Positions 2,961 to 64,000 of a DNA stretch of 64,000 nt are shown in pieces (the first letter of the stretch is position 1; every line of letters begins with the position of its first letter). The translations under genes were made by a program, and so were the position numbers. This DNA is from Thermicanus aegyptius DSM 12793 (GTDB taxonomy: Bacteria > Bacillota > Bacilli > Thermicanales > Thermicanaceae). The stretch is from positions 3,115,788 to 3,179,787 of the forward strand of contig NZ_KI783301.1 of assembly GCF_000510645.1 (NCBI RefSeq), written 5' to 3'. The notes beneath the pieces are model-generated. The model saw nothing but the letters and a program-made list of their open reading frames with translations, was not told where the DNA came from and did no database searches.

Positions 2961-3416
2961 TCACAACATTCTTCTTTTGAACAGATAACTTGACCGCATG
3001 TAACCCATTTTATCCTCATAAAAGCGATGGGCATCGACACGCTGCAATCCGGAGGTTAAGACGACCCATTCACATCCTTGTTCCTTTGCCCAATTCTCCA
3101 CATAACGCAGGAGACTTTCCCCGATTCCCTGAGATCGGTATTCACCCGCCGTAACAAGATCATACAAATAGAAATGGCGTCCATTATACAAATTGGTAAG
3201 AATCGTCCCGCCGGCCAGGGCGAGGATCTCTTCCCCTTTCCGGTAGGCGAAGAGGCGATACCCTTCCCTCCACATGGCGCGCATTCCCTGCAAGTAATCC
3301 TCCATCGTGAGGTGGGTGCGGAGCTGGCTCATCACCGGATAAGCTTCCTTCCATTCCTCTTCAGATCCCAATGGGACGATCCGTTCATCTCTCTCTTTTT
3401 CATCCTGTTGCGTCAT
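2961..3416 (-). CDS. GNAT family N-acetyltransferase
   Basis: This 151-residue single-domain GNAT protein would transfer an acetyl group from acetyl-CoA to an unknown amine. The core is recognisable: the strand LYDLVTAGEYRSQGIGESLL carries the acetyl-CoA pyrophosphate loop (R/QxxGxG/A form, YRSQGIG), followed by the helix LRYVENWAKEQGC, the strand WVVLTSG and the helix AHRFYEDKMGYM typical of the C-terminal GNAT half. The start is an ATG preceded by AAGGGGGG. It is transcribed alone, divergent from ydbS. Substrate cannot be predicted. Confidence 0.85.
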   Translation of the reverse strand: MTQQDEKERDERIVPLGSEEEWKEAYPVMSQLRTHLTMEDYLQGMRAMWREGYRLFAYRKGEEILALAGGTILTNLYNGRHFYLYDLVTAGEYRSQGIGESLLRYVENWAKEQGCEWVVLTSGLQRVDAHRFYEDKMGYMRSSYLFKRRML

Positions 3417-46900: not shown

Positions 46901-48448
46901 TTACTGCCCGCCGCCAAACTGCTGCATCAACCAGCCGCTCTGCATATTGGCCCGCTGGATCGCCTGCTCCATGGCGGTAAACTGCCGCCAATAGCGGTCT
47001 TCCACTTGTTTTAGGTGATCTTCAAAATTGCTCATATCATCCGCTAACTGATCCAATGCTTTCCCGATGACGCTTTCCGTATCCGTCGTCATCGCCGGGC
47101 TTCCGGCTTTATCGGTCAGCTTTTTGATCGCAGAATTTAGCGAATCGTAGAGGCGGACGGCTAACCCCCGTTCGTCCACGTTATCATTGGGATCTGTATC
47201 GACCTGGGTAAAGAGAGCCATCACTTTCTCCGGATTCTGCTCCAAAGCGGACCTGAGCTTCGTCTCATCGATTATGATTTTCCCATTGGTTTCATAGGAA
47301 CCTGTGGTAAACCCCAGATCAAACATGCTGTCCATGGAAGGGTCGAGTCCGGCTACGGAATTGGAGAAACCGGCGCGGAGTTGGTACAGGGTCCCTTGGA
47401 GGAGGTCATCCCGCTGCAGAATTCCGCTTCTCGCCTTTGCTTCCCACTTCTCCACCTGTTGATCCGTCATCGCCTCCCGTTGGGCGTCGGTGAGGGGGAG
47501 ATAATCCCGATACTTCGGTTCGGACAGCTTCGCGTTGATCTTATCGATCGTGTCGTTATATTTCCCGATGAACTGGACGATCTTATCGAAGACGGCGTCG
47601 GTATCGTTGGAGACGGTGAGTTGAACCGGTGAGGATGTGGTGCCGTTTAATGTGAGGTTAAGACCGTTGATGGAAAAGGCGTTGCTACTATTTGTGATCG
47701 TAACACCATTAACCTGATTATCCACCACATAGCGAATGGATGCATCATCTCCATGGTAGTTTCCTGGGGTGATCTTTAGCATGTCCCTCACGAAATTCTC
47801 TGCACCATCGGTAATCTCTATATTAGCGCTCTTCCCTGTGGAGGTTGTATTCAGGAAAAAGAGGCCATATGTTGAATCAAAGGATGCGGTGACGCCAAGA
47901 TTGGCCTCGTTAATTCTTTTTACCACATCATAGATTGTTTCTTTCGCAGTATCGAAGGTGAATGTTTCTTTATTATTTAAAGTAAAGGTGACTGTTGGTG
48001 TGTTGGTTAATCCAAATTGCGTTGCCAGATTGAGTGTATCCCCCGAAGAAGATGAAGAAGAAGGGAGTTTTTGGGAACTTACCAGCGAGACTCCTTTGGC
48101 CACACTATCCACGTAAATCTTATGAATCCCTAATTGTGCATTGGTGCCAGCAGTTGCAGTTACTACACTGGGATCAGAAGAAGTTACCTTCTTCGTAAGG
48201 TACGTCCCCTGCAGCTTCATATCAAAGGCGGCATTTCGCAAGTCCAACAGCAGGGAATTCATCTCCCGGTAGGCATCCCGCTGCCATTCGAGCAGCTGTT
48301 TCTTCTGCATCATCTTATCCAATGGGATTCGCTCGGCATCCATCAGTTTCTTTACGATGGATTCCGTATCCATCCCAGATGCGAGGCCGGAAATCCGGTT
48401 CCAATACAGGGTACTGCTACTGCCGCTACCTGAAATACTCGTAGCCAT
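46901..48448 (-). CDS. fliD: Flagellar filament capping protein FliD
   Basis: A 515-residue hook-associated protein 2 that caps the growing filament and inserts flagellin. The conserved N-terminal region is RISGLASGMDTESIVKKLMD followed by a coiled coil (DKMMQKKQLLEWQRDAYREM); the FliD_C region (NDTIDKINAKLSEPKYRDYL, LTDAQREAMTDQQVEKWEAK) and the terminal coiled coil (LKQVEDRYWRQFTAMEQAIQ) are present. The ATG at 48448 has AAAGGAGG upstream. Transcribed with flaG from a SigD-type promoter. Confidence 0.94.
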   Translation of the reverse strand: MATSISGSGSSSTLYWNRISGLASGMDTESIVKKLMDAERIPLDKMMQKKQLLEWQRDAYREMNSLLLDLRNAAFDMKLQGTYLTKKVTSSDPSVVTATAGTNAQLGIHKIYVDSVAKGVSLVSSQKLPSSSSSSGDTLNLATQFGLTNTPTVTFTLNNKETFTFDTAKETIYDVVKRINEANLGVTASFDSTYGLFFLNTTSTGKSANIEITDGAENFVRDMLKITPGNYHGDDASIRYVVDNQVNGVTITNSSNAFSINGLNLTLNGTTSSPVQLTVSNDTDAVFDKIVQFIGKYNDTIDKINAKLSEPKYRDYLPLTDAQREAMTDQQVEKWEAKARSGILQRDDLLQGTLYQLRAGFSNSVAGLDPSMDSMFDLGFTTGSYETNGKIIIDETKLRSALEQNPEKVMALFTQVDTDPNDNVDERGLAVRLYDSLNSAIKKLTDKAGSPAMTTDTESVIGKALDQLADDMSNFEDHLKQVEDRYWRQFTAMEQAIQRANMQSGWLMQQFGGGQ

Positions 48449-48516
48449 CTTTTTTCCTCCTTTCACTTCGTTTCACGTTCGCTATCTCTCATTTCAATCC
48501 CCACCCACAGCGGGCG

Positions 48517-48921
48517 CTACACCTTTTCATCGATGATTAACCCGATCTGCTCCCAGATGCTGGCCACCATATCAAGGAGCTTTTTCGGGGGAATCTCCCG
48601 GATCACTTCATTGGTATTGTCATCAATGATCTGAACGTAATACTCACCAATCTTTTCGTGATACAAAAATTTCAAATGAGAATGGGTGGGATTCAGGATG
48701 GCATTAAAGCCCTCCACCGCCTTCTTCGCCTCCTCAGGGGTAAGGGTTCCCCTCTCCCGGGCGGCCTTCGCATCTCGCCCAGGGTTCTCCCTATCCCGGT
48801 CCTGATCTTTCATTCCATTGATCATAAATACATCCTCAGCCATTCCTGGGCTCACCCTCCGACCGGGTGTCACAGGTGTAACCGGCCTAACCCCTCCCTG
48901 GGTAATCCGATCGATTTCCAT
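48517..48921 (-). CDS. flaG: FlaG family flagellar protein
   Basis: A 134-residue FlaG protein: a disordered, charged N-terminus and the compact FlaG domain at the C-terminus (LKFLYHEKIGEYYVQIIDDN followed by TNEVIREIPPKKLLDMVASI). FlaG proteins influence filament length in some bacteria. The ATG at 48921 follows GGGAGGGAGAAGGT. First gene of flaG-fliD-fliS. Confidence 0.88.
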   Translation of the reverse strand: MEIDRITQGGVRPVTPVTPGRRVSPGMAEDVFMINGMKDQDRDRENPGRDAKAARERGTLTPEEAKKAVEGFNAILNPTHSHLKFLYHEKIGEYYVQIIDDNTNEVIREIPPKKLLDMVASIWEQIGLIIDEKV

Positions 48922-48958
48922 ACCTTCTCCCTCCCTGGAGAAATTCATCCTATTGGGA

Positions 48959-53115: not shown

Positions 53116-53369
53116 CTATTTCCACTTCATTAACTCCTGTACCAATCGATGAACCGTGGTCGACGGATTGTTGGCCTCAGGGTTATAATTACAACACCCA
53201 CCACATCGACATTCACCAAGCGGAAGGAATTAAAATAGTTTGGTTCTGTCTTTGTCCCTTCGCACACAATTAAAAATAGGTCCCGGACTTCACCCTTTTT
53301 CTTTTCTGATCTTTTATACTCACCAAGGTTTCTCAATCTCCCTTTTTTAAATAAATCATCGGTCCCCAT
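53116..53369 (-). pseudogene. RloB-like gene, frameshifted and truncated
   Basis: From ATG at 53369, overlapping the ATPase gene by 14 bp, the frame encodes the RloB N-terminus: KKKGEVRDLFLIVCEGTKTE and PNYFNSFRLVNVDVVGV. The RloB/TOPRIM-like core then needs a frame change near 53172-53180; in the other frame NYNPEANNPSTTVHRLVQEL-type text continues to a TAG at 53116. RloB proteins are about 200 residues, so over half is missing as well. The system partner upstream is also damaged, so this is a decayed pair. Confidence 0.75.
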
Positions 53370-54651
53370 AATTGGCACCATCTTTCTCATCTTGAAAAAA
53401 ATGAAATTGTCCGATATATGGGATGGAACCATATTTACCCTGCAGATAATCTTTTTCGTATGAAGCATCATTTCTTACGTTATAGTCCACAAGGGAATAT
53501 AAATCGGACGCCCCAAACTCATCTTTCTCAGTGAACCAAATTTGATCCCTTCTGAAAAAATTCCTATTCAGGAGATTGGTGTCATGGGAATTAAACAACA
53601 ATTGGGCATTCTTAGGATTGGTTTCCGAATGAAACAAATGAATAATAAATTTTGTTAGAATGGGATGTAACTTCGCATCCAATGCATCCACGAGCAGAAT
53701 GGCTCCATTATCAAGGGTATCAATAATCGGTCCAAATAAAGAAAACAATTTTCTTGTACCCTCAGATTCATGATGAAATAACTGAAATTCCTCATAACCC
53801 ACAAATTGATTCTCTTGATCAAATTTCTTGTGTAAGGTATTTAGGGTAAAGTTTTGAATTCTAAATGTAATTTCCCTCTTTTGACCTCCAGTCAGATTCT
53901 TCATCACATCTTCGATGAAACCTCTCGGAATTTCCTCTTCACCCACTGAAATATCATCGATATCCAAGTTCGCCGCTCGAATTAAATTGATCACCTTCTG
54001 TTTAAAAGGTTCCTCCTTCAACATCCGCCTCGTATAGGAAAAGTAGCCATCTTCCAATCCGGAAATCACATGAAAATTACTAAACCATTTAAGAATCCTC
54101 GATGAAATCTTTCCTTGAAAATTGGCTACGACAGATAAAAATAATGCATTCTCTCGGGTTCTTTTATCCAATCCCACCCCCTCTTCAAAATGTCTGGAGA
54201 TTTCAAAGTGATCCAGTTCTCGAGTAAATAACTCAATTTCTTTTCTTTTGGGAGCATAATACAGCCATTCCCGTTTAACGCTGATGGGATCCACTTCAAA
54301 ACCATATCGGTACAATGTAGTACCATCCAGAAAAACCACTTCAAAAAAACTGGGTTGATCAATGGTGGCGATGTTTAGCCGAAAGCTTTCAACCCCCTCA
54401 ATTTCTTCTCCCACTTGTCCTTCCTTTGAAGAATTCTTGATAAACCGCTTCATAAAAGCCATTGCTTTCAAAAGATTGCTCTTTCCACTTGCATTTGCCC
54501 CGTAAATCACAGCGCTTTTCAACAGACCTAATCCCTTTGGTGTTTTAAAGACATTTGTCTCCTTGTGTTCCTTAATACTTGCCGCCACCATACTTAACGT
54601 TACTTTTTCTCTAAAGGATAAGAAATTCCCTACACTAAATTGAACCAACAT
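53356..54651 (-). CDS. AAA15 family ATPase (RloA / AbiL-type), Walker B glutamate replaced
   Basis: A 431-residue OLD/SMC-like ABC ATPase. The N-terminus FSVGNFLSFREKVTLSMVAA and Walker A YGANASGKSNLLKAM are typical; a helical insert follows, then the signature-like HESEGTRKLFSLFGPII and Walker B. There the family's DELDAKLHP reads DALDAKLHP: codon 323 is GCA (53685-53683) instead of GAA, removing the catalytic glutamate. The tail FNSHDTNLLNRNFFRRDQIW, WFTEKDEFGASDLYSLVDY is intact. RloA-RloB pairs are toxin-like or abortive phage-defence modules. With its partner broken too, this copy is probably inactive. Confidence 0.85.
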   Translation of the reverse strand: MLVQFSVGNFLSFREKVTLSMVAASIKEHKETNVFKTPKGLGLLKSAVIYGANASGKSNLLKAMAFMKRFIKNSSKEGQVGEEIEGVESFRLNIATIDQPSFFEVVFLDGTTLYRYGFEVDPISVKREWLYYAPKRKEIELFTRELDHFEISRHFEEGVGLDKRTRENALFLSVVANFQGKISSRILKWFSNFHVISGLEDGYFSYTRRMLKEEPFKQKVINLIRAANLDIDDISVGEEEIPRGFIEDVMKNLTGGQKREITFRIQNFTLNTLHKKFDQENQFVGYEEFQLFHHESEGTRKLFSLFGPIIDTLDNGAILLVDALDAKLHPILTKFIIHLFHSETNPKNAQLLFNSHDTNLLNRNFFRRDQIWFTEKDEFGASDLYSLVDYNVRNDASYEKDYLQGKYGSIPYIGQFHFFQDEKDGANYGDR

Positions 54652-54896: not shown

Positions 54897-55591
54897 TCAC
54901 CGAATGCCTACGCGAATAGCTTCCTGTCCATAGATAAGTTGAAGATGCTTATTTTCTTTTAATTCCTGTTCTACCAATGTAAACTGAAAAGGAAAAAGGC
55001 TTGGTTCCTCGTGAAGATGGTTTACCTCCACCGCCACTTTTCCCGTGGCACGTAGGTAAGCTTCGCAGACCCATTGTTTGACCATTGTATTGGTGATCGG
55101 AATAACCTGTCCGATAAACGCCTTTTCCTTTGGAAGGATAACATTAAGATCCTTCCATGTCTTTAATATTTTCTTTGTAGCCACATTTACTTTTTCTCTT
55201 TCCCCATAAAGTGCGCTCATCTTTCGTCTAATCTGTATCGTTGAAAACTCCCCTTGAATCTGCAGAAGGCGTCCTGCTTGCCCTGCCATTTCACGAAAAT
55301 AGGGATAGGCCATGAGGATAAGTCCCCAATGAAGCATCAGGCGCTCACCTAACGTCGCATCGTCTAAAAGTTCAAGCGCCCGATCGCGTAGGCTTTCATT
55401 TTCAGGCGGTACCAGTACCCAAATTTTAAAAAGAATTGTTCGAGCTTTTTTCGCGCTTCATTTCCTGCAATATCCCACATTACTTTCAAAAGTTGATCGA
55501 GATGGTCAATATCCTTTTCCACAATAAATAGGAGCTTATGGCGTTTTTGACGACTTTGATTCATTAGATCCTTTAAGGTATCATTTAACAT
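54897..55591 (-). pseudogene. Unrecognised gene broken by one frameshift
   Basis: The 5' part starts at ATG 55591 (AAGGAG 7 bases upstream) and encodes LNDTLKDLMNQSRQKRHKLL... to a stop at 55364. The 3' part, in another frame, reads WVLVPPENESLRDRALELLD, DATLGERLMLHWGLILMAYP and on to 54897. The two fit as one protein of about 230 residues if one base is lost in the T/A run near 55430. The middle (IQIRRKMSALYGEREKVNVA, TKKILKTWKDLNVI) looks like a winged helix. Family unknown to me. It may be a real mutation or an assembly error in the homopolymer. Confidence 0.6.
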
Positions 55592-55817
55592 CGCAGTGCT
55601 CCTTGCCGGCAATCATATATAATTGGGTTATGTTGCCTCTTAGGTTGAGAAAGGGAATATAATCATAGATCATCATCCTTTAATCATGAACTACATTGTA
55701 TAAAGGCGATCCAACACTTATCTTATCTTTATCATATCGTGACGATATCCATTTATCAGCAAACTGCCGTTCGATTCTTTTTTTACAAAAATATTATTTC
55801 ATCTATTGTCAATTACG

Positions 55818-57914
55818 TCAGTCATCTGTCGGTAAATCGTCTTTTAAAAAAATCTCTTTGATTTCGTCGGGTATTTGATCAGTGATATTTACTTGGGAAA
55901 TGATCTTTCTTTCTTCATCCAAATTGAGCCAACTTTCGATCTCCTGGATCCTAAGATCCTTAGGAATATGTTCGTTTGCCATAGGTCTACCAAGGGTTTT
56001 TTCCAAATAGTTTATTTTTTTTCCAATCTGCCTTCGGATCGCTTCAGGTGGCGGGAAACGCAACCAATTCAATTCCTTGATCTGCTGAGATTCATACCTT
56101 ATATAGCAATTATTAATCCAAATTTTTTGATCAAGTCGGTGAATCTCTCTTAAAAGTTCTAGAAGGAGCCTCCTTCTTACACCTCCGAGATGGAAGATCA
56201 ATGTATCCGATCCGGTGTTGATTCGAGGCCAAAGCTCTTTCTCAAGCTTTAAGTACCATCTTAGGATGAGCGCATGTTCCGTCGATTTATTTCCGGAAGA
56301 GAAATAACTCCAATCTTCTTTACTCTCCTCCGGTTTTCGAAATGAAGCATCTCCCTTCAATGGCTGAACTGCAATGTTTCGATCGGTAACTGTCCGGATG
56401 TTAAAAATTTTACCGGCAACTTGTATGATATTTCCACCGTTATAGTTAACATCCTTCGCGATCCTTTCGCCGCTTCTTTCATCGATGATCTCATATCCAT
56501 AACTACCCTCAATATTGGAATGGATCATCCCTTGTATTCCCCTATCCAACCATTCTTCCGAAAGGCATATTCCTCGCTCATCTTCTACTAATTCCTCCCG
56601 ATCAAGGAGATAATCGATCATGAATGTTCCAATTTCGTCTTCCGATAAATGATTCACAAAGCGAATAAGTTGATCACGATTTCGATATCTTATAGGAGAT
56701 TGAAAGATATATGAAAAAATCTGTTGACGTATTACGGCGTAATTTTTCCCTTTTACACCCGTTCCAAGCCAAGAGATCTTTGCCGCTTCTACCATCGCTT
56801 TATGTATGAACTGATTGAGATCAGTGGAAGAGAAAAGGATTACCCTCGTTCGATTGGTGCGCCGATTCCCTCTTCCTATCCGCTGTAAGAAAGAAGGAAT
56901 ATCTGGTGCTGGGTCATCAAGCATGACCAGATCGATATCGCCAATATCGATCCCGAGTTCTAAAGTAGACGTGGCAACGATCAGCACCTTCTCCCGATAT
57001 CGAATTGCCTCTTCCGCCTCCTCCCTCAGTCTCTTGCTAAGGCTACCATGATGGGGATAAACTTGATATCCATCTTTCTCTAAGCGGCGATTTAACAGAC
57101 GGGAAAGATGATCTACGCGCTGACGGGAATTACAAAATAGCAGAATCTTCGCCGGACGATCGAGGTTACGAATGTAAGCCGCTATCTCGTGATCGATCCG
57201 TTGAGAAACGGGGCGAATTTCCGCCTCAATCTCCCGTTGGCCCGGATGAATTAACTTCTTGCCTGAAGGTAAATAAGCCTTCAAGATTTCATCCGGTTCA
57301 GGAACCGTAGCGCTTAATGCGATGATTTGCACCTCTTTAGATTTGCTCCATCGCTTATTCTGCGCCTCAACTCTCAACCTCCGCAACCGCTCTATCAACC
57401 AGCGAATCTGCTCTCCACGAGCAGTACCATGGAATAGATGTACTTCATCCAACACAACGGCAACTACATGCGCCAATAGGTGGCCAAATTGGTTAGGCAG
57501 TTTTCCTCTGCACAGCATGCTGTCAAATGATTCCGGTGTCGTAAGAAGTAAATGTGGGGGGCGTCTTAGATTGCTCTTATATTCTCCTGTTCTCCTTTGA
57601 ATCTGTAAGCCAAGGGAAGAGACAGGAGGTTCTAACCGTTGATACAGATCATTTACTAAGGCGCGCGTCGGGGAAATGTAAAGGATGGTCCACGCCTCAT
57701 CGCGGTCTATATACCTATCGATGAGCGGAGCACAAGCCGCCTCTGTCTTTCCGCTCGCCGTGGCTGCGCATACCAGTAAATCCTCCCCCTCTAAAATGAG
57801 GGGGATTGCCCTTCTCTGTACCGGAGTAAGTCGTCCAAATCTCTGAAAAAAAGCATGCCAAGTGTGCACTAAACGGTTATGAATTTGTCGATCTTCATAC
57901 AGTTCCTCTTTCAT
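55818..57914 (-). CDS. Superfamily 2 DEAD/DEVH helicase, BrxHI/Lhr-like
   Basis: A 698-residue helicase. Motifs in order: Q motif RLTPVQRRAIPLILEG, I ATASGKTEA, Ia SPTRALVNDLYQRL, Ib TTPESFDSML, II LDEVHLFHG (DEVH), III ALSATVPEP, IV ILLFCNSRQRVDHL, V VATSTLELGIDIGDIDLVML and VI RIGRGNRR. The accessory C-terminal half of about 300 residues resembles the Lhr-like helicase BrxHI of type II BREX. It overlaps the upstream BrxD-like gene by 20 bp, reproducing the BREX brxD-brxHI order. Predicted to translocate on DNA. No nuclease motif is visible. Confidence 0.85.
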   Translation of the reverse strand: MKEELYEDRQIHNRLVHTWHAFFQRFGRLTPVQRRAIPLILEGEDLLVCAATASGKTEAACAPLIDRYIDRDEAWTILYISPTRALVNDLYQRLEPPVSSLGLQIQRRTGEYKSNLRRPPHLLLTTPESFDSMLCRGKLPNQFGHLLAHVVAVVLDEVHLFHGTARGEQIRWLIERLRRLRVEAQNKRWSKSKEVQIIALSATVPEPDEILKAYLPSGKKLIHPGQREIEAEIRPVSQRIDHEIAAYIRNLDRPAKILLFCNSRQRVDHLSRLLNRRLEKDGYQVYPHHGSLSKRLREEAEEAIRYREKVLIVATSTLELGIDIGDIDLVMLDDPAPDIPSFLQRIGRGNRRTNRTRVILFSSTDLNQFIHKAMVEAAKISWLGTGVKGKNYAVIRQQIFSYIFQSPIRYRNRDQLIRFVNHLSEDEIGTFMIDYLLDREELVEDERGICLSEEWLDRGIQGMIHSNIEGSYGYEIIDERSGERIAKDVNYNGGNIIQVAGKIFNIRTVTDRNIAVQPLKGDASFRKPEESKEDWSYFSSGNKSTEHALILRWYLKLEKELWPRINTGSDTLIFHLGGVRRRLLLELLREIHRLDQKIWINNCYIRYESQQIKELNWLRFPPPEAIRRQIGKKINYLEKTLGRPMANEHIPKDLRIQEIESWLNLDEERKIISQVNITDQIPDEIKEIFLKDDLPTDD

Positions 57915-59199
57915 TTCCTATTCTCCTTGGCGGCCCATATCGTCGATCTAATTCATGCATAAAACTTTTGATAAAATCTCTGATCACACCATTGTTCTGG
58001 TATATGCGATCGGCAAATCGGCTTATGATCTCCTGCATTAGATCGGTATCATTTTCAATCGGTATGAAATAGGCTTCCTTGTAAAGATCCGTTATCTCTC
58101 TCCCAAGTGCAATTAACTCATCGAGCTTATAATAGGGTAATTCGTATGGCCTCCCCCCGCTTTTTTCGACCAAATGATCGATGACCTGATTGATCTCGGA
58201 ATCATCCTCAACCGTTGCAAAAATGAGCGCAAAAGGAGCATTCGGGTACTCATCTTTTTGATCCTCAAAGTAACTCCACAACCGATCCAGCAGCATGATT
58301 GCCTTTCTCCGTTCACTAGGAGGGAGAATTGAAGATTCAACTTCCACTTCATCAATCGTGATGACCAACCCTTTCCTTCCTATGAGGCGAGCCAGATATG
58401 CATAACCGATTAAGGCTTTGAGAAACTCTTCCACCTGTGAACTTCGGGTAAAGACGGGCATTACTTCGATCCCTCTACCCGAAAACCACGGATATTTACG
58501 GATTTGATCTTTTATTATCCTTATAGAATCAACCTCATCATTACCCGATAGAACCTTTTCAACATCTTCAGCCAGTTCCTCTCTTAAGTTAGTTTGCTGA
58601 ATCTGTTTTATCAAATCATAATTCGCGCCAAGCCAATCCTCCTGGCGAAATAGATGCGGTTTCGGATTTCCATTGTGGATCGTATGGAAAAACAACTCAT
58701 ATAACGGAATCTCTGTTTCAAAATCTTTTCCCTTCAGGGTTCGAGCAATCTCACCAAACAATTTGCTCGGCTTCGCTAAGCTAATATGCTGCCCGTCAAC
58801 TTCGGCACTTGCGATTAAAAATCCTCTTTGATAGGCAATATATCTTGTGATTTCAAGGGCATGGCTTTTCCCCGTGCCGAATGGCCCATGAATTACCGAC
58901 ACGGTTGGTTGGGAATATTCCAATCGATCTAGATGGAAATCAACCCATTCTTTGAGCAGACCGTATCCGATGGTAAGACGCTCGATTTCCTCTTGAGGCA
59001 CCAAGCCAAACCGCAATGCCTCAATCGTTTTTTTACGGGACAAGTTCCCCTTTGGTACATCAAGATCTTCTATCGAAGCCGGAAACTTATACTGATTGTA
59101 ATTTTCAAGTGCCAGATGGACTTGATTCCCGTTTATTTCTTTAATAATCCCGTATCCCAACTGTTTGTGTTTCACTCTCATTCCTATTTTCCATTCCAT
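57895..59199 (-). CDS. BREX-type P-loop ATPase (BrxD/DUF2791-like) with N-terminal SH3-like domain
   Basis: A 434-residue ATPase. Residues 1-45 (GMRVKHKQLGYGIIKEINGN) resemble the small KOW/SH3-like nucleic-acid contact domain found on some helicases. From residue 55 it follows BrxD: KTIEALRFGLVPQEEIERLT, GYGLLKEWVD, Walker A HGPFGTGKSHALEI and Walker B GLVITIDEVEVE. Near residue 310 ALIFATVEDDSEIN carries the sensor-like region. BrxD is an AAA-type ATPase of BREX phage defence. Coupled to the following helicase gene (20-bp overlap) and 6 bp from the next ATPase gene. Confidence 0.82.
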   Translation of the reverse strand: MEWKIGMRVKHKQLGYGIIKEINGNQVHLALENYNQYKFPASIEDLDVPKGNLSRKKTIEALRFGLVPQEEIERLTIGYGLLKEWVDFHLDRLEYSQPTVSVIHGPFGTGKSHALEITRYIAYQRGFLIASAEVDGQHISLAKPSKLFGEIARTLKGKDFETEIPLYELFFHTIHNGNPKPHLFRQEDWLGANYDLIKQIQQTNLREELAEDVEKVLSGNDEVDSIRIIKDQIRKYPWFSGRGIEVMPVFTRSSQVEEFLKALIGYAYLARLIGRKGLVITIDEVEVESSILPPSERRKAIMLLDRLWSYFEDQKDEYPNAPFALIFATVEDDSEINQVIDHLVEKSGGRPYELPYYKLDELIALGREITDLYKEAYFIPIENDTDLMQEIISRFADRIYQNNGVIRDFIKSFMHELDRRYGPPRRIGNERGTV

Positions 59200-59205
59200 T
59201 TCCCG

Positions 59206-60414
59206 CTACACCTCATCTTCAACAGTGGCTCTTGTGGCCAATATCTCTTTTTTCCCCGGTAAAAGGGATAACAGATATGTACAAGTCCGTTTTACCAATT
59301 CTCGACGATTGCTACTTGAGTATTCACTTTCAATCGTCTCCGTTACGATATCAACGATCTTACGATTGATCTCTTCTTGCGAAACGATGATCTCCTGAGA
59401 AAAGTAGGAAAGGAATACACCGGTCAGCTTAGATGCAATCGATTTAAGATCCTGTATGGGATCGCCACGCTTCGCTAAGTCTATGACGGGGGCATATGTG
59501 TTCCCATCAAAAAAGCCCATTCCAGGACCTGGATCTGCCAGCCTTTGCTGCAATGCGGCGAAATTCTCCATTTTCTCGATCATATCGGGGGTAAGCGCAT
59601 AAACGATGAATACGGCTCCATTCCGTAGCTCGACTAAGGAGTTAAGTTGACTCATCAATAGAGAATGAATTCTCGCTACCTTCTTGCGTTCCACTTGAAA
59701 CCCCTGTTCCGCTTCATCAAAGGTAACCACAGTCCCTTGAAACCCCGCGTGCTTGATAAACTGGAACAATGAATGGAGCATACGTTGTGCATAGCGGTTC
59801 TGTTCATTGCCGGAGATAGGAGATAACCCTAAATCCCTGGCCAAATGTTTATTTCCAATCTCGCCACTCAGCCAACGTAGAATCGGTTCCAGTTCAATCT
59901 CATTCTCTCCATAGATTGCTAGAAAAGCTCGTTTCATCAGTTTGCCATATTCATTTAATTTAAATTGATACTTGTCTAATCCATTGATCCATTGAAAAAA
60001 TAAATCTTCTAAAGCATTCGTACTATCTTTTTCCTTGCGTTCTTTAATTTGCAAAAGCAGCTCCTTTAAGCCATATGTTTCATTATTCGTGGTAAGATTC
60101 CTGATCACCTCTTGATATACGACGAGTGTCTTCGTAAAATCGATCTCTTTATTTAATGTTACTTTACTCGTAACGCAATCCCTCTCTCGCGCCAATTCCA
60201 TCAGATGGTTGATAAAATGAGTTTTGCCTGAACCGAATGGTCCCACCACAAACTTCTGATCGGATTCTCCTCTAGAAAATCTCTCTTTTAAGTAGATTTG
60301 ATCTAATCGCGCAAATAATTCCTCACTTCCGGCGGTAAATTGGATGACTCTATTCTCCGGGGCCGTCCCATACGCCGCCATATTCTCAAAGGTCGTAAGG
60401 ATAGATTCCCTCAT
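59206..60414 (-). CDS. Second BREX-type P-loop ATPase (DUF2791-like)
   Basis: A 402-residue ATPase: ENRVIQFTAGSEELFARLDQ, Walker A VGPFGSGKTHFINHLMELAR, Walker B TVVTFDEAEQGFQVERKKV, and FIVYALTPDMIEKM near the sensor. It shares the fold and motif spacing of the BrxD-like neighbour but little detailed sequence, so the duplication is old. No PglZ, PglX or BrxL is seen beside it. The Gln-Gly after the Walker B acids (DEAEQG) is characteristic of the DUF2791 group. Confidence 0.75.
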   Translation of the reverse strand: MRESILTTFENMAAYGTAPENRVIQFTAGSEELFARLDQIYLKERFSRGESDQKFVVGPFGSGKTHFINHLMELARERDCVTSKVTLNKEIDFTKTLVVYQEVIRNLTTNNETYGLKELLLQIKERKEKDSTNALEDLFFQWINGLDKYQFKLNEYGKLMKRAFLAIYGENEIELEPILRWLSGEIGNKHLARDLGLSPISGNEQNRYAQRMLHSLFQFIKHAGFQGTVVTFDEAEQGFQVERKKVARIHSLLMSQLNSLVELRNGAVFIVYALTPDMIEKMENFAALQQRLADPGPGMGFFDGNTYAPVIDLAKRGDPIQDLKSIASKLTGVFLSYFSQEIIVSQEEINRKIVDIVTETIESEYSSSNRRELVKRTCTYLLSLLPGKKEILATRATVEDEV

Positions 60415-60434
60415 CTCCCAACTCTCCCTTCCAT

Positions 60435-61598
60435 CTACCTGATGGATTCAATGTTTGCTATTAAATGTGTAGCCAGCCTTTTGATCAATGCCCGGCGATA
60501 ATCGGCGCCGGCATGCGCTTCTAACACTTCTTCTCCCAGCCGGTACAACTCTTCTTTCATACTTTCACGAACTTGAAAGTAACGAAGAAGTAGTTCAACC
60601 ATTCCTCGGAGGAATTCCTCAGGACTCTCCGTTTCATTGACGGATTGAATCGGTAGGACGGGCGATCGCCATCCGATTCCTTCAGCGACGTTTCGATTCA
60701 TCATGAGCCGTTGACCAAGGGCAGGATATGTATCATTCACATGTTTAAAAAAACCGGGAAGAACCGCAAAAACAACACCCGTACCGACTAGGGTTCCATT
60801 GGTAGTCCCGTCTATCAACCTCCTTATGAGGTTAGCTGCTTTCTTAAATTTATTGGATGGTCTGGTAGGAGAGGTCGTAAGTGTTTTATTATTTTCATCA
60901 AACAGGAGAAGAAGTCCCGGAACACCGATCATGTGTAAGCTGGTTAGAACCGTCTTTAGGAAAACTTCTGCGTTTCGTTTTGTAAGGGAACCCTTGAAAA
61001 ACCTTGCAAATTTTGCGCCACTAAAGTCTTTTACCGTTGTTTTTTCACCGAGAATATTGCGACTGAGTACCTCCCATTGAGTTTCGTCTAATCCCTGACT
61101 ATGTTTCATGGCAAAAATAATCGCTTTCCTTATCCCCTCATGGGGGAGCGGGGTCTTTCCCAGTTTATCGATTTGATATTGAGGATTTTTACTTAATTCT
61201 TTTAATATGTTAGGGAGCGATTGGATATGTTGGTTGCCTACCACCATCTCCATATTGGCTAGGATCTCCTTCGTAATCCCTTGCCAGTCATCAAGAGGTA
61301 GATCATCCGATAAGGCAGTCCTATAGATGATATATCCTTTCTTGATCCCCAAATGGTAAAGAAGGCTAAGCAGATGTGACTTTCCCGATCCGGAAGGTCC
61401 TTCATAAAAACGGCAAGTGGCTCCTCCTTGTGAAATAAAGGTATCAAGGATCTCTTCTTCGAAAAAATTGATGTATTTTGTAGTACCAACATCTATAAGG
61501 GCACTTCTCTCATCGGTTAGATGTCCATGTTGGGCGATCGTTTTTAACGCCTCTATTACTTCTACGAGCATATTGGCTCTATCTTCATGAAGAGGCAT
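60435..61598 (-). CDS. Third BREX-type P-loop ATPase (DUF2791-like)
   Basis: A 387-residue ATPase: SALIDVGTTKYINFFEEEIL, Walker A YEGPSGSGKSHLLSLLYHLG, Walker B GLLLLFDENNKTL and FAVLPGFFKHVNDTYPALGQ. The ATG at 61598 (PLHEDRANMLVEVIEALKTI) has GGGGGTG 6 bases upstream; the longer form from 61625 overlaps the 294-aa gene by 41 bp instead of 14. The most diverged of the three ATPases; the arginine-rich segment KRNAEVFLK and the terminal helix may mediate ring assembly. Confidence 0.75.
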   Translation of the reverse strand: MPLHEDRANMLVEVIEALKTIAQHGHLTDERSALIDVGTTKYINFFEEEILDTFISQGGATCRFYEGPSGSGKSHLLSLLYHLGIKKGYIIYRTALSDDLPLDDWQGITKEILANMEMVVGNQHIQSLPNILKELSKNPQYQIDKLGKTPLPHEGIRKAIIFAMKHSQGLDETQWEVLSRNILGEKTTVKDFSGAKFARFFKGSLTKRNAEVFLKTVLTSLHMIGVPGLLLLFDENNKTLTTSPTRPSNKFKKAANLIRRLIDGTTNGTLVGTGVVFAVLPGFFKHVNDTYPALGQRLMMNRNVAEGIGWRSPVLPIQSVNETESPEEFLRGMVELLLRYFQVRESMKEELYRLGEEVLEAHAGADYRRALIKRLATHLIANIESIR

Positions 61599-62469
61599 TG
61601 TTTTCACCCCCGAGGGATAAGACATAACACATGACTTTGTAATCTTCTAGGGGATGTAAACCGTTCACAACCATACCTTTTCCCTGAGCCACCTCCTGTT
61701 GGCTACCCGTTTGTAAGATTAATCGTTCCGAATGGGGGAGGTTACTGCTGTATGAAAAAAAGCAATCTAGGTTATAAAGAAAGGCGTATTTGGGAAACTC
61801 ACCATAACTTAGTTTTGCATCAATTCTCTTTTTCTCCATTTCCATTTGAAGTAACAAAAGGCGGAGTTGTTGGTAAAACGTTAAAATCGGAACGCGAGGG
61901 GTTGATTTCGTTTCCACTCCCTTCTCTAAGGCTCTCTTATAAGCAAGAGGAAAATATTGAAGCAGTGTATCCTTCGGCAACAGGTATTTCTCCAATTTCG
62001 CCAACGCTTCTTCTTCATATTTCGTAATATCATCTTCTCCGGAAACCGGCTTCCAATTGACAACGACCTCCCGATTGTAAAGAAAGCGAACTTGAGAAGA
62101 AATGGGATTGGTGGCAAGCTCTAATATCCCTACGCGCCAACCATCATTGGTTTCCCGGATCGCTTTCGATTTTTCTCTCTGCGCACGTATATATGAAGAC
62201 TCTATCCTTTTAAATTGCTTGGTTCTTCCCAATTTTGCTTGATCCAAAAAGGCATTTGCTTTCTCCCTCCAATTTTTAAGCTGTACTAGGAGGTCATCCT
62301 CGGAAGGTATGGATTTTAGCTCCTTTGCCAGTTTGTCTAAATAATCCGGATCATTCCCTTTTAAAGAGAGAATGTTACGGATTGGTTTCTGAAGTTTCTC
62401 CAGCTCCTTTTTCAGATTCTTGAATTCAGTCTTCTCATCCAACTTTTCCATTTGTTCATTTTCAATCAA
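61585..62469 (-). CDS. Unrecognised 294-aa protein of the ATPase/helicase operon
   Basis: I do not recognise this family. Residues 1-110 are a coiled coil rich in Lys/Glu (EKTEFKNLKKELEKLQKPIR). The rest is globular with striking text: DGWRVGILELATNPISSQVR, FLYNREVVVNWKPVSGEDDI, FLYNLDCFFSYSSN and a C-terminal LILQTGSQQEVAQGKGM, VNGLHPLEDYKVMCYVL. It overlaps the upstream helicase gene by 4 bp (ATGA) and the next ATPase by 14 bp, so it is a fixed member of the operon. It could be the specificity or adaptor subunit; no catalytic motif is evident. Confidence 0.7.
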   Translation of the reverse strand: MIENEQMEKLDEKTEFKNLKKELEKLQKPIRNILSLKGNDPDYLDKLAKELKSIPSEDDLLVQLKNWREKANAFLDQAKLGRTKQFKRIESSYIRAQREKSKAIRETNDGWRVGILELATNPISSQVRFLYNREVVVNWKPVSGEDDITKYEEEALAKLEKYLLPKDTLLQYFPLAYKRALEKGVETKSTPRVPILTFYQQLRLLLLQMEMEKKRIDAKLSYGEFPKYAFLYNLDCFFSYSSNLPHSERLILQTGSQQEVAQGKGMVVNGLHPLEDYKVMCYVLSLGGENNASS

Positions 62470-64000
62470 CTTACTTCTTCCTTTCTTTCGGCAGGTTTGT
62501 ATCCCAGCTTATTGACTTTCTCCCAAACTTTCTTTAATTGGTCATTCACATCAGTTGGTGATTCCTTATTTGAGATAAGGCGTTTCACATATTGATCTAC
62601 GATATCATCCTCTCGAGGTGTAAAATGTCGAAATTTCCTCCCCCAACTAAGGATGTTTAGCCATTCGCCGGGCGATTGCGGCATAGATGTTTCGATGTGA
62701 ATCGTATCTTTAAAATAGGGCGAAAGCTCTTTGGTATAAAAGATGGTTACGGCATGTAAGGCACGGGTTAGCGCTACATACAACAGTTTTGCATAAAAAG
62801 GATGCCGAGGATAATGCTCCTGATTGATGTCGGCAAGGATGACCGCGTCATATTCGAGCCCCTTCGCCAAAGTGATGGGTAAGATTACAGCCCTGCTATT
62901 TTCCCCCGTCATCGTCTCGTCTAATAGATTAATCTTCAATCCGTGTTGTTCTTGTAATTCCGTAAAAAATCGTTTGGCCTCTTCATGGTTCCGGGTGATG
63001 ATGGCCACCCTATAATTCGTAGTTTTTAAAAAATGGGTTACCTCTTTCCCAATCTCGGTAACCAACTTCTTCTGTTCATCTACGTAAACCAATTTAGGTT
63101 TACTGCCCCTTCTACCGATATGGACAGGTATAGGAATATTTGCGTTCTCCAAGCTCTCCAAGATTTGATTGGATCGTTCTACGATTTCATAGGTAGACCG
63201 ATAGTTAAACGTAATTTGTCGATATTCCATGTTAGGAAATAGACTTTGAAGATCCGACCAATCTTCAATGCCGTTATAATCATAGATCCCCTGGGCAAGG
63301 TCGCCAAGAATGGTAAGTGAATTCCCGTTCCGTGTAAGTCTTTTGATCATCTCCATTTGGTAGGGAGAATAATCCTGTGCTTCATCAATCACAATATGAT
63401 CGAAATAGGCTCCTATCCCATTGATGAGAATGTCCAAATGAAGAATTGCAGCTAGGTCTTCATAATCGACTGCCTTATTTTTCTTCAGATGTTGTAGCCG
63501 TTCAACGATTTTATCCACCATATCTTCACTCAGGTCTCGATAAAGTTCCAACAGCCGTTCCCGATTGGAGAAAAGTTCCCTGAACACAGTTACGGGATTT
63601 AGTCTGATCCACTTTTCCTTATACTCACTGAGCGCTCGTCTAACTTCATTCGTCAAAGCTTCTTTCCGTTTGATATTACGGCTTTTGATGTAATCATTTG
63701 CCTCCTGGCGCCTGCTACTTCCTTTGGGTAAATGCTCTACCCATTGGTAATATTCCGATTCAAATTGTTCATCTAATTTTTTCAGCTGTTCGTTAAGATA
63801 ATCCTTTGCGAACGTTTCAATGAATTCTAAGGTTTTCTCTATCCTTTTATTGAGCGGATAGTCTCGATAATCATCAAAGAAGATTTTTCTTATTTTATAA
63901 TAAGGTAAATAGATGGTAGGATTGATTTCAAAATCCTCCATAGGTACAACTTGTTCCGTGATAAAGTGTATATATCGCTCTATTCCTTCTTTACATTGTA
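62466..64000 (-). CDS. UvrD/HelD-like superfamily 1 helicase, 5' part outside window
   Basis: At least 511 C-terminal residues are present; the frame stays open to the right edge (no stop between 63941 and 64000), so the Walker A part lies outside. Motifs: II HIVIDEAQDYSPYQMEMIKR, III LTILGDLAQGIYDYNGIEDW, IV ITFNYRSTYEIVERSNQILE, V AVILPITLAKGLEYDAVILA and VI LLYVALTRALHAVTIFYT. The ordering and the ADINQEHYPRHPFYAKLLYV passage are closest to HelD-type DNA helicases that can strip RNA polymerase. It heads (in view) the operon of three BrxD-like ATPases and a DEVH helicase. Confidence 0.85.
   Translation of the reverse strand, partial: QCKEGIERYIHFITEQVVPMEDFEINPTIYLPYYKIRKIFFDDYRDYPLNKRIEKTLEFIETFAKDYLNEQLKKLDEQFESEYYQWVEHLPKGSSRRQEANDYIKSRNIKRKEALTNEVRRALSEYKEKWIRLNPVTVFRELFSNRERLLELYRDLSEDMVDKIVERLQHLKKNKAVDYEDLAAILHLDILINGIGAYFDHIVIDEAQDYSPYQMEMIKRLTRNGNSLTILGDLAQGIYDYNGIEDWSDLQSLFPNMEYRQITFNYRSTYEIVERSNQILESLENANIPIPVHIGRRGSKPKLVYVDEQKKLVTEIGKEVTHFLKTTNYRVAIITRNHEEAKRFFTELQEQHGLKINLLDETMTGENSRAVILPITLAKGLEYDAVILADINQEHYPRHPFYAKLLYVALTRALHAVTIFYTKELSPYFKDTIHIETSMPQSPGEWLNILSWGRKFRHFTPREDDIVDQYVKRLISNKESPTDVNDQLKKVWEKVNKLGYKPAERKEEVS

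Follow-up and report, generated by a model that had tools for sequence, protein, structure and literature searches.

A five-gene cassette of an orphan protein, three BrxD-like ATPases and a helicase, proposed to act against invading DNA, in Thermicanus aegyptius DSM 12793

What is the function of an operon that encodes DNA motors and in which searches of Pfam, PADLOC and NCBIfam recognise no nuclease or toxin? This question is raised by the end of a 64,000-nucleotide stretch of Thermicanus aegyptius DSM 12793 (the window, C1:3115788-3179787 of a single-contig genome of 3.66 Mb), where six minus-strand genes run from 65015, beyond the window edge, to 55818. In order they encode a HelD-like superfamily 1 (SF1) helicase, an orphan protein, three BrxD-like ATPases (A1, A2 and A3) and a superfamily 2 (SF2) helicase (Hx). 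Here we describe how the last five genes recur as one removable unit, how their products compare with those of bacteriophage exclusion (BREX) and Shango, and why they may form a mobile cassette directed against phage or plasmid DNA.

The conserved five-gene unit and its operon

The genes for the orphan, A1, A2, A3 and Hx keep this order in no fewer than 12 further genomes or contigs (numbered here L010, L011, L110-L112 and L140-L146), with A1 shortened in L146. These relatives were found by scanning genome contigs with a helicase alignment and by whole-genome searches with A1. Because the order is conserved in distant genomes, chance association of the five genes is ruled out. Within the family that includes L110, L112 and L143-L146 the set is present in six of 13 genomes and absent from the other seven, and in one genus it occupies a single site as a block of ~6.65 kb that begins ~160 bp ahead of the orphan gene and ends 4-5 bp beyond the Hx stop codon. 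Alignment of the empty site L147 with six filled sites gives a single inserted or deleted block of exactly the five genes: L147 matches to ~3262-3281 and resumes at 3266-3268, and between these points lie ~6,680 bp in L145, ~6,663 bp in L143 and ~6,650 bp in L112. The cassette is gained or lost as a single unit and leaves a clean empty site. Among 400 genomes from the class to which the window belongs, A1 was found in one; together with its presence in six of 13 genomes of the other family, this makes the distribution patchy, as that of defence genes is.

An earlier reading of the window made from its sequence alone (the sequence-only reading) described six tightly packed genes, and their spacing is as it stated. 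The HelD and orphan genes overlap by 4 bp (TTGA, with the HelD stop codon on the orphan start) and an AAGGAAG motif lies upstream. The orphan and A1 genes overlap by 14 bp if A1 begins at the ATG at ~61598 behind GGGGGTG, or by 41 bp from the first ATG of the open reading frame (ORF). A1 and A2 are separated by 20 bp and A2 and A3 by 6 bp, and A3 overlaps Hx by 20 bp. The catalytic motifs are unbroken in HelD and in the four core motors, A1-A3 and Hx. The operon was also correctly read as running past the window edge, where the complete HelD ORF extends a further 1,015 bp. The toxin or modification gene that had been suspected there is not found: 567 bp of spacer precede HelD, beyond which lie genes for a CPBP-type protein and an ABC exporter pair, and the inspected lists of upstream ORFs contain no toxin gene and neither pglX nor pglZ, which would have pointed to ordinary BREX. 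The operon is genuine and its six genes are the full set, with no effector hidden past the window edge.

As a unit, the six-gene set held up in part. The exact five-gene removable block defines the working unit without HelD; the recurring unit is orphan-A1-A2-A3-Hx, and HelD is an accessory outside it. The coordinates of the features are collected in Table 1.

Table 1. Genes of the operon and the Tudor-like domain of A3, in window coordinates
Feature	Coordinates	Strand	Length (aa)	Evidence
HelD-like SF1 helicase, first gene	62466..64000 (window part; full ORF to 65015; L002:9466-12015)	-	849	NCBIfam HelD_BACSU, PDB 6wvk_H, motifs
Orphan, signature subunit, predicted adaptor	61585..62469	-	294	AlphaFold 2 (AF2) model, orthologs, profile match, family hidden Markov model (HMM)
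A1, BrxD-like (ORC/Cdc6-type; ORC, origin recognition complex) AAA+ ATPase	60435..61625, likely start ~61598	-	396 (probably 387)	PF10923, clade, Walker motifs
A2, BrxD-like AAA+ ATPase	59206..60414	-	402	PF10923, clade, Walker motifs
A3, BrxD-like AAA+ ATPase with N-terminal Tudor domain	57895..59199	-	434	PF10923, AF2 fold, clade
Tudor-like domain of A3, residues 1-46	59062..59199	-		16-sequence profile against PDB; PF21196
Hx, SF2 DEVH helicase, BrxHI/SngC/Lhr-like, last gene	55818..57914	-	698	Pfam, PADLOC, clade, motifs

Subunits of the cassette and its wider family

The sequence-only reading had recognised three DUF2791-type ATPases, two helicases and an orphan protein, and the Pfam assignments bear this out. 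PF10923 (BrxC_BrxD) is matched in all three ATPases (A1, E 1.3e-19; A2, E 1.1e-34; A3, E 1.8e-19), a UvrD domain is matched in the HelD-like protein, and DEAD (E 4.5e-35) and Helicase_C (E 3.1e-19) are matched in Hx; the orphan has no significant match in Pfam, PADLOC or NCBIfam. For the operon PADLOC and NCBIfam give distant matches only, the NCBIfam scores lying far below the cut-offs and that of HelD moderately below. The relationships of the motors were examined with quick trees of 59 ATPases and 89 helicases, in which branch support comes from the Shimodaira-Hasegawa-like approximate likelihood-ratio test (SH-aLRT) only.

The Walker A and Walker B motifs are intact in A1 (GPSGSGKS and LLLFDE), in A2 (GPFGSGKT and VVTFDE) and in A3. 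In PADLOC A2 matches SngB (E 3e-23) and BrxD (E 9e-19). The AF2 model of A3, with a predicted local distance difference test (pLDDT) score of 84.2, shows a small N-terminal domain that is rich in strands and an AAA+ domain, for which the best fold matches in the PDB are ORC subunits of helicase-loading complexes (E 7e-5); among the three ATPases this comparison was made with the A3 model alone. The ATPase tree has a separate ortholog clade for each of A1, A2 and A3 (SH-aLRT 100, 100 and 99), all three apart from BrxD and SngB, with A1 and A2 near the first ATPase of the four-gene relatives described below and A3 near the second. SngB is a single clade of 7 rows (SH-aLRT 100) with the window ATPases outside it. 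Two other candidates were set aside: A2 matches the DefensePredictor family DS-41 at 25 bits against a cut-off of 370, and a weak match of A3 to PbeC of PbeABCD (E 0.0017), which is an ABC ATPase, led nowhere.

Judged by sequence, the N-terminal domain of A3 is homologous to the RNA-polymerase interaction domain of UvrD/PcrA. When a profile of 16 A3 N-termini was compared with the PDB, the eight best matches were all UvrD/PcrA chains (E 8.8e-7 to 0.63) and nothing else was convincing; for the window sequence alone the best Pfam family is PF21196, with an E of 0.0058 that is below the cut-off. The domain shares the VxHxxxGxGxI pattern of the UvrD/PcrA Tudor domain. The Tudor domain of PcrA binds RNA polymerase, and His681 and Trp684 are among the residues that have been tested (PMC5397179). 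Reading the equivalence from the motif spacing, A3 retains the histidine (position 11) and has a leucine three residues on, where PcrA has the tryptophan. In A3 the domain sits before an ORC-like ATPase, whereas in UvrD/PcrA it lies behind an SF1 helicase.

Hx is matched by the PADLOC models for BrxHI (E 3e-85) and SngC (E 1e-68), and its GKT, DEVH, SAT and QRIGRGNR motifs are intact. In the helicase tree 35 sequences from orphan-type loci and their kin fall on one side of a fully supported branch (SH-aLRT 100) and BrxHI and SngC fall on the other. The window Hx belongs to a ten-row clade from five-gene loci (SH-aLRT 99), and it is outside SngC, a clade of 27 rows (SH-aLRT 99). The sequence-only reading had taken A3 and Hx for a brxD-brxHI pair, which the two trees contradict.

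The operon HelD can be compared with the Bacillus-type HelD, an RNA-polymerase recycling motor. It matches over 700 residues with its helicase motifs intact (GSGKS, DEAQD and VALTRA) and aligns with HelD in the PDB (6wvk_H, E 3e-69), but it scores 354.1 bits with NCBIfam HelD_BACSU over residues 73-770, under the equivalog cut-off of 419, and it sits in a defence-like operon. A second, separate HelD that is 27% identical to the operon protein is encoded elsewhere in the genome. In Tumebacillus L059 one locus contains both a HelD gene and a gene for a Shango-like helicase; the two are on opposite strands ~4.5 kb apart, and this was judged a coincidence.

In the AF2 model of the orphan (pLDDT 83.8) the N-terminus is long and helical, the C-terminal part is rich in helices, and there is a sheet of five strands. 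A fold search found no significant solved or viral relative (best whole-protein E 0.48); several winged-helix proteins, ORC1 and TubR for example, are among the weak partial matches. Orthologs in Bacillota are 33-43% identical. When the orphan was used as a single query sequence, nothing was returned from 100 relatives, from plasmids or from genome contigs, and its homologues were reached through the helicase. At the profile level the orphan and its counterparts in other phyla match with 97.3% probability (E 2.7e-11) and the plasmid-group orphans match orphan profile A7 (98.7%, E 2e-16); profiles built from three sequences each, one for the window group and one for the plasmid group, gave no convincing match to each other. 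An HMM of the orphan family was run on 1,348 ORFs from 97 loci and on the empty-site loci. It matched 29 ORFs, with a BrxD-like ATPase as the next gene in 28 of the 29 as called; ten of the 29 had been used to train the HMM and the loci had been picked for related genes, so this number speaks for consistency and is not an unbiased count. By these comparisons the orphan is the signature subunit of a wide family, found in several phyla and on plasmids, in which it is combined with ORC/Cdc6-like ATPases and an exchangeable helicase.

Metagenome-assembled genomes of Anaerolineae, Acidobacteria, WOR-3, Myxococcales and others (within L013-L027) carry the order orphan-ATPase-ATPase-Hx, and some of these four-gene sets have methylase or toxin-like genes inside them, such as the DNA methylase of L014. 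Plasmid cousins are found in Aulosira and Desulfomonile, and the one in Aulosira adjoins BREX genes that include PglX, PglZ, BrxD and BrxHI. The helicases at L024:9980-15325 and L029:9974-15643 combine an Hx-like SF2 core with an SF1 (AAA_11/AAA_12) helicase at the C-terminus. Giant helicases of ~1,360-1,910 aa occur in L024, L029, L030, L031 and L037. Five Bacillota loci (L114-L117 and L119) encode an orphan-like protein and two BrxD-like ATPases without Hx; the helicase near the set is XPB-like and on the other strand in L114-L116 and SNF2-like in L119. A functional link of these helicases to the core, and with it helicase exchange, is only suggested.

Several relatives have defence genes as neighbours: BREX adjoins L006, AbiE is near L007, and L111 has HEC-05 and NERD-helicase genes nearby. 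In L142 (7278-19998) the five genes are followed directly by those for a DrmD-like SNF2 helicase, a type IIG restriction-modification enzyme and a DruE-like helicase, possibly a further composite system. These neighbours come from hand-picked loci, without a background rate.

Proposed function and competing explanations

We propose that the five genes form a mobile anti-invader cassette, headed in the window genome by an extra HelD, in which the ATPases load the helicase on phage or plasmid DNA; we see this proposal as evenly balanced. The defence function is inferred from analogy, from the patchy distribution and from the neighbours. BrxD has been proposed as the loader of BrxHI (PMC12839542). 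By the same logic the three ORC/Cdc6-type ATPases would form a DNA-encircling loader and the orphan would be an adaptor that recognises DNA or a target, and together they would load Hx onto invader DNA. The Tudor domain of A3 may tether the complex to RNA polymerase, which would direct loading to transcribing or stalled complexes, and HelD, as a motor that removes RNA polymerase, might then clear the polymerase. Restriction would occur by unwinding, or by stripping of the replication and transcription machinery, and not by a dedicated nuclease. As no nuclease was recognised, any DNA damage would be left to host nucleases.

The Tudor domain and HelD are signs of two candidate links to RNA polymerase. 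A more far-reaching proposal is that defence is coupled to transcription. A Tudor-tethered ORC-like ring would load the helicase at transcribed invader genes, a dedicated HelD would strip the polymerase, and the core of orphan and ATPases would accept different helicases across phyla (Hx, an Hx-SF1 fusion and perhaps XPB-like or SNF2 proteins) and so act as a general loader platform of immunity. We consider this form possible but doubtful.

Several observations count against the proposed function. Some members lie in ordinary chromosomal surroundings, and searches of viral contigs with A1 and the orphan found no relative. The Tudor domain is missing from A3 of the genus with the removable block, whose 390-residue protein begins at the ATPase, and from the second ATPase of two plasmid cousins. 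The orphan C-terminus is possibly a winged helix, but this is a guess from weak fold matches in a model (best E 0.48). HelD is beside the cassette only in the window copy, and there is none in the relatives with a visible upstream region; the view ends 446 bp before the orphan gene in L010 and 485 bp before it in L142.

The last point bears on the best-surviving alternative, which is compatible with the proposed function for the other five genes: HelD may be a bystander that landed in front of the working unit and is merely co-transcribed. HelD was not found beside the cassette in L011, L110, L112, L140 or L143-L146, and the removable block consists of the five genes only. On the other hand, HelD is translationally coupled to the orphan in a genome that has its second, separate HelD, and SF1 helicases are joined to Hx in other members; the fused helicases of L024 and L029, which are on the Hx branch, mean that an SF1 motor has joined the system more than once. 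We place the bystander explanation just short of an even chance.

It is also conceivable that the system serves housekeeping or the stress response, with a loader and a helicase acting with HelD at stalled RNA polymerase in replication-transcription conflicts or DNA repair. A UvrD/PcrA-type Tudor domain, HelD and the lack of a recognised nuclease or toxin would fit such a role, as would the copies in ordinary gene surroundings, but the patchy presence of the set as a removable block within one genus, its occurrence in one of 400 genomes of its own class, the plasmid cousins and the defence neighbours speak against it. We regard this explanation as unlikely.

The cassette could instead be a divergent Shango, which is the closest characterised system. 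The sequence-only reading left Shango out and compared the operon with BREX. Shango, which combines a TerB protein with a BrxD-like ATPase and a BrxHI-like helicase, has been shown to protect against phage (PMC10250203). In both systems the gene for a BrxD-like ATPase lies directly before that for a BrxHI-like helicase, with a further gene ahead. The orphan would then replace SngA, the ATPases SngB and Hx SngC under the same working principle, namely a variable first protein, an ORC-like ATPase and a BrxHI-like helicase, and the A2/SngB and Hx/SngC model scores are good. However, the first gene of Shango encodes the TerB protein SngA, and that of the cassette encodes an unrelated orphan that does not match SngA and has no Pfam TerB match; a whole-genome PF05099 search found no TerB. 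The cassette has two or three ATPases and a Tudor domain on A3, whereas Shango has one ATPase, and SngB and SngC each form one clade that excludes the window proteins. The trees and the absence of TerB refute membership of Shango but not a shared mechanism, and we find a divergent Shango distinctly improbable. SngB-SngC pairs in which no SngA is detectable by BLAST occur in L046, L058, L060, L063, L075, L078-L081, L083 and L089, a Shango subgroup whose first gene is different or has diverged.

Type 2 BREX resembles the cassette in having a PF10923 ATPase (BrxD) beside an SF2 Ski2/Lhr-like helicase (BrxHI), and differs in its clades and in lacking the orphan subunit. A whole-genome PF08665 search found no PglZ (control genomes were positive), and the only PF10923 matches in the genome are A1, A2 and A3, which leaves no other BrxC/D-family ATPase. 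A PglX fragment from Aulosira gave no match in the genome as a single query without a positive control. A remnant or split type 2 BREX, in which a brxD-brxHI pair with tandem brxD copies survived while the other genes were lost or moved, would account for the ATPase-helicase order, the PADLOC matches to BrxHI and BrxD, the BrxA-like fragment just downstream and the cousin cassette that adjoins BREX in L006, but it is scarcely credible and is refuted for this genome by the PglZ and BrxC/D searches and by both trees, which place Hx and the ATPases outside the BrxHI and BrxD clades, and the set recurs intact in unrelated genomes.

The YprA-family systems (DISARM, Druantia and ARMADA) likewise have a central SF2 helicase, BREX-like partners and a location in defence islands (PMC12458937). 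They were rejected as a match: Hx has no Pfam match to the zinc-binding DUF1998/MZB domain, and the gene set is not mentioned in the passages of that paper that were searched. By the sequence comparisons above the cassette is neither BREX nor Shango, which agrees with the distinction from canonical BREX drawn in the sequence-only reading. It is uncatalogued, with no match as a system in PADLOC 2023, NCBIfam 2026 or the open-access literature.

Genomic setting and significance

The description of an A+T-rich island with defence remnants also proved correct, as the GC content of the operon is 42.4% compared with 51.4% in the first 50 kb of the window. Directly downstream (54897-55612) is a BrxA-like fragment in which 146 aa match BrxA positions ~98-224 (PADLOC E 1e-26); the first half is either absent or in another frame, and the fragment may be left over from a BREX or similar system that was once present. 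It is followed at 53130-54651 by an AbiL-type pair, an AbiLi-like ATPase (PADLOC E 4e-100) and then an apparently truncated RloB-like gene. Between the operon and flagellin lie a PD-Lambda-3_A-like protein (E 4e-21) with a nuclease-like EVKKKG stretch (L002:17604-18260, minus strand) and a LAGLIDADG endonuclease (L002:16233-17279, plus strand).

In the window genome the cassette adjoins flagellin on the flaG/fliD side (window 46901-48948 to L003:1-1282), and in the unrelated genus of L110, L112 and L143-L153 it adjoins flagellin on the csrA side, in a region that also has transposases and HEPN/MNT-like, nuclease-like and methylase-like genes. It is possible that the flagellin locus is a hotspot for defence. 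A flagellum-linked function, suggested by this location in two lineages, was rejected, since the surroundings of the other members that were inspected showed no recognisable flagellar genes.

If the proposed function is correct, the cassette would represent a third, wide lineage beside BrxD-BrxHI and Shango, with a defining protein that is unnamed in the libraries used. The Tudor domain and HelD would give a concrete clue to how defence by motors only may find invader DNA, a question that is open for Shango and BrxD-BrxHI. The clean natural empty site supplies strains that can be compared directly, and the helicases, which appear to be exchanged, show which part of the family is its constant core.

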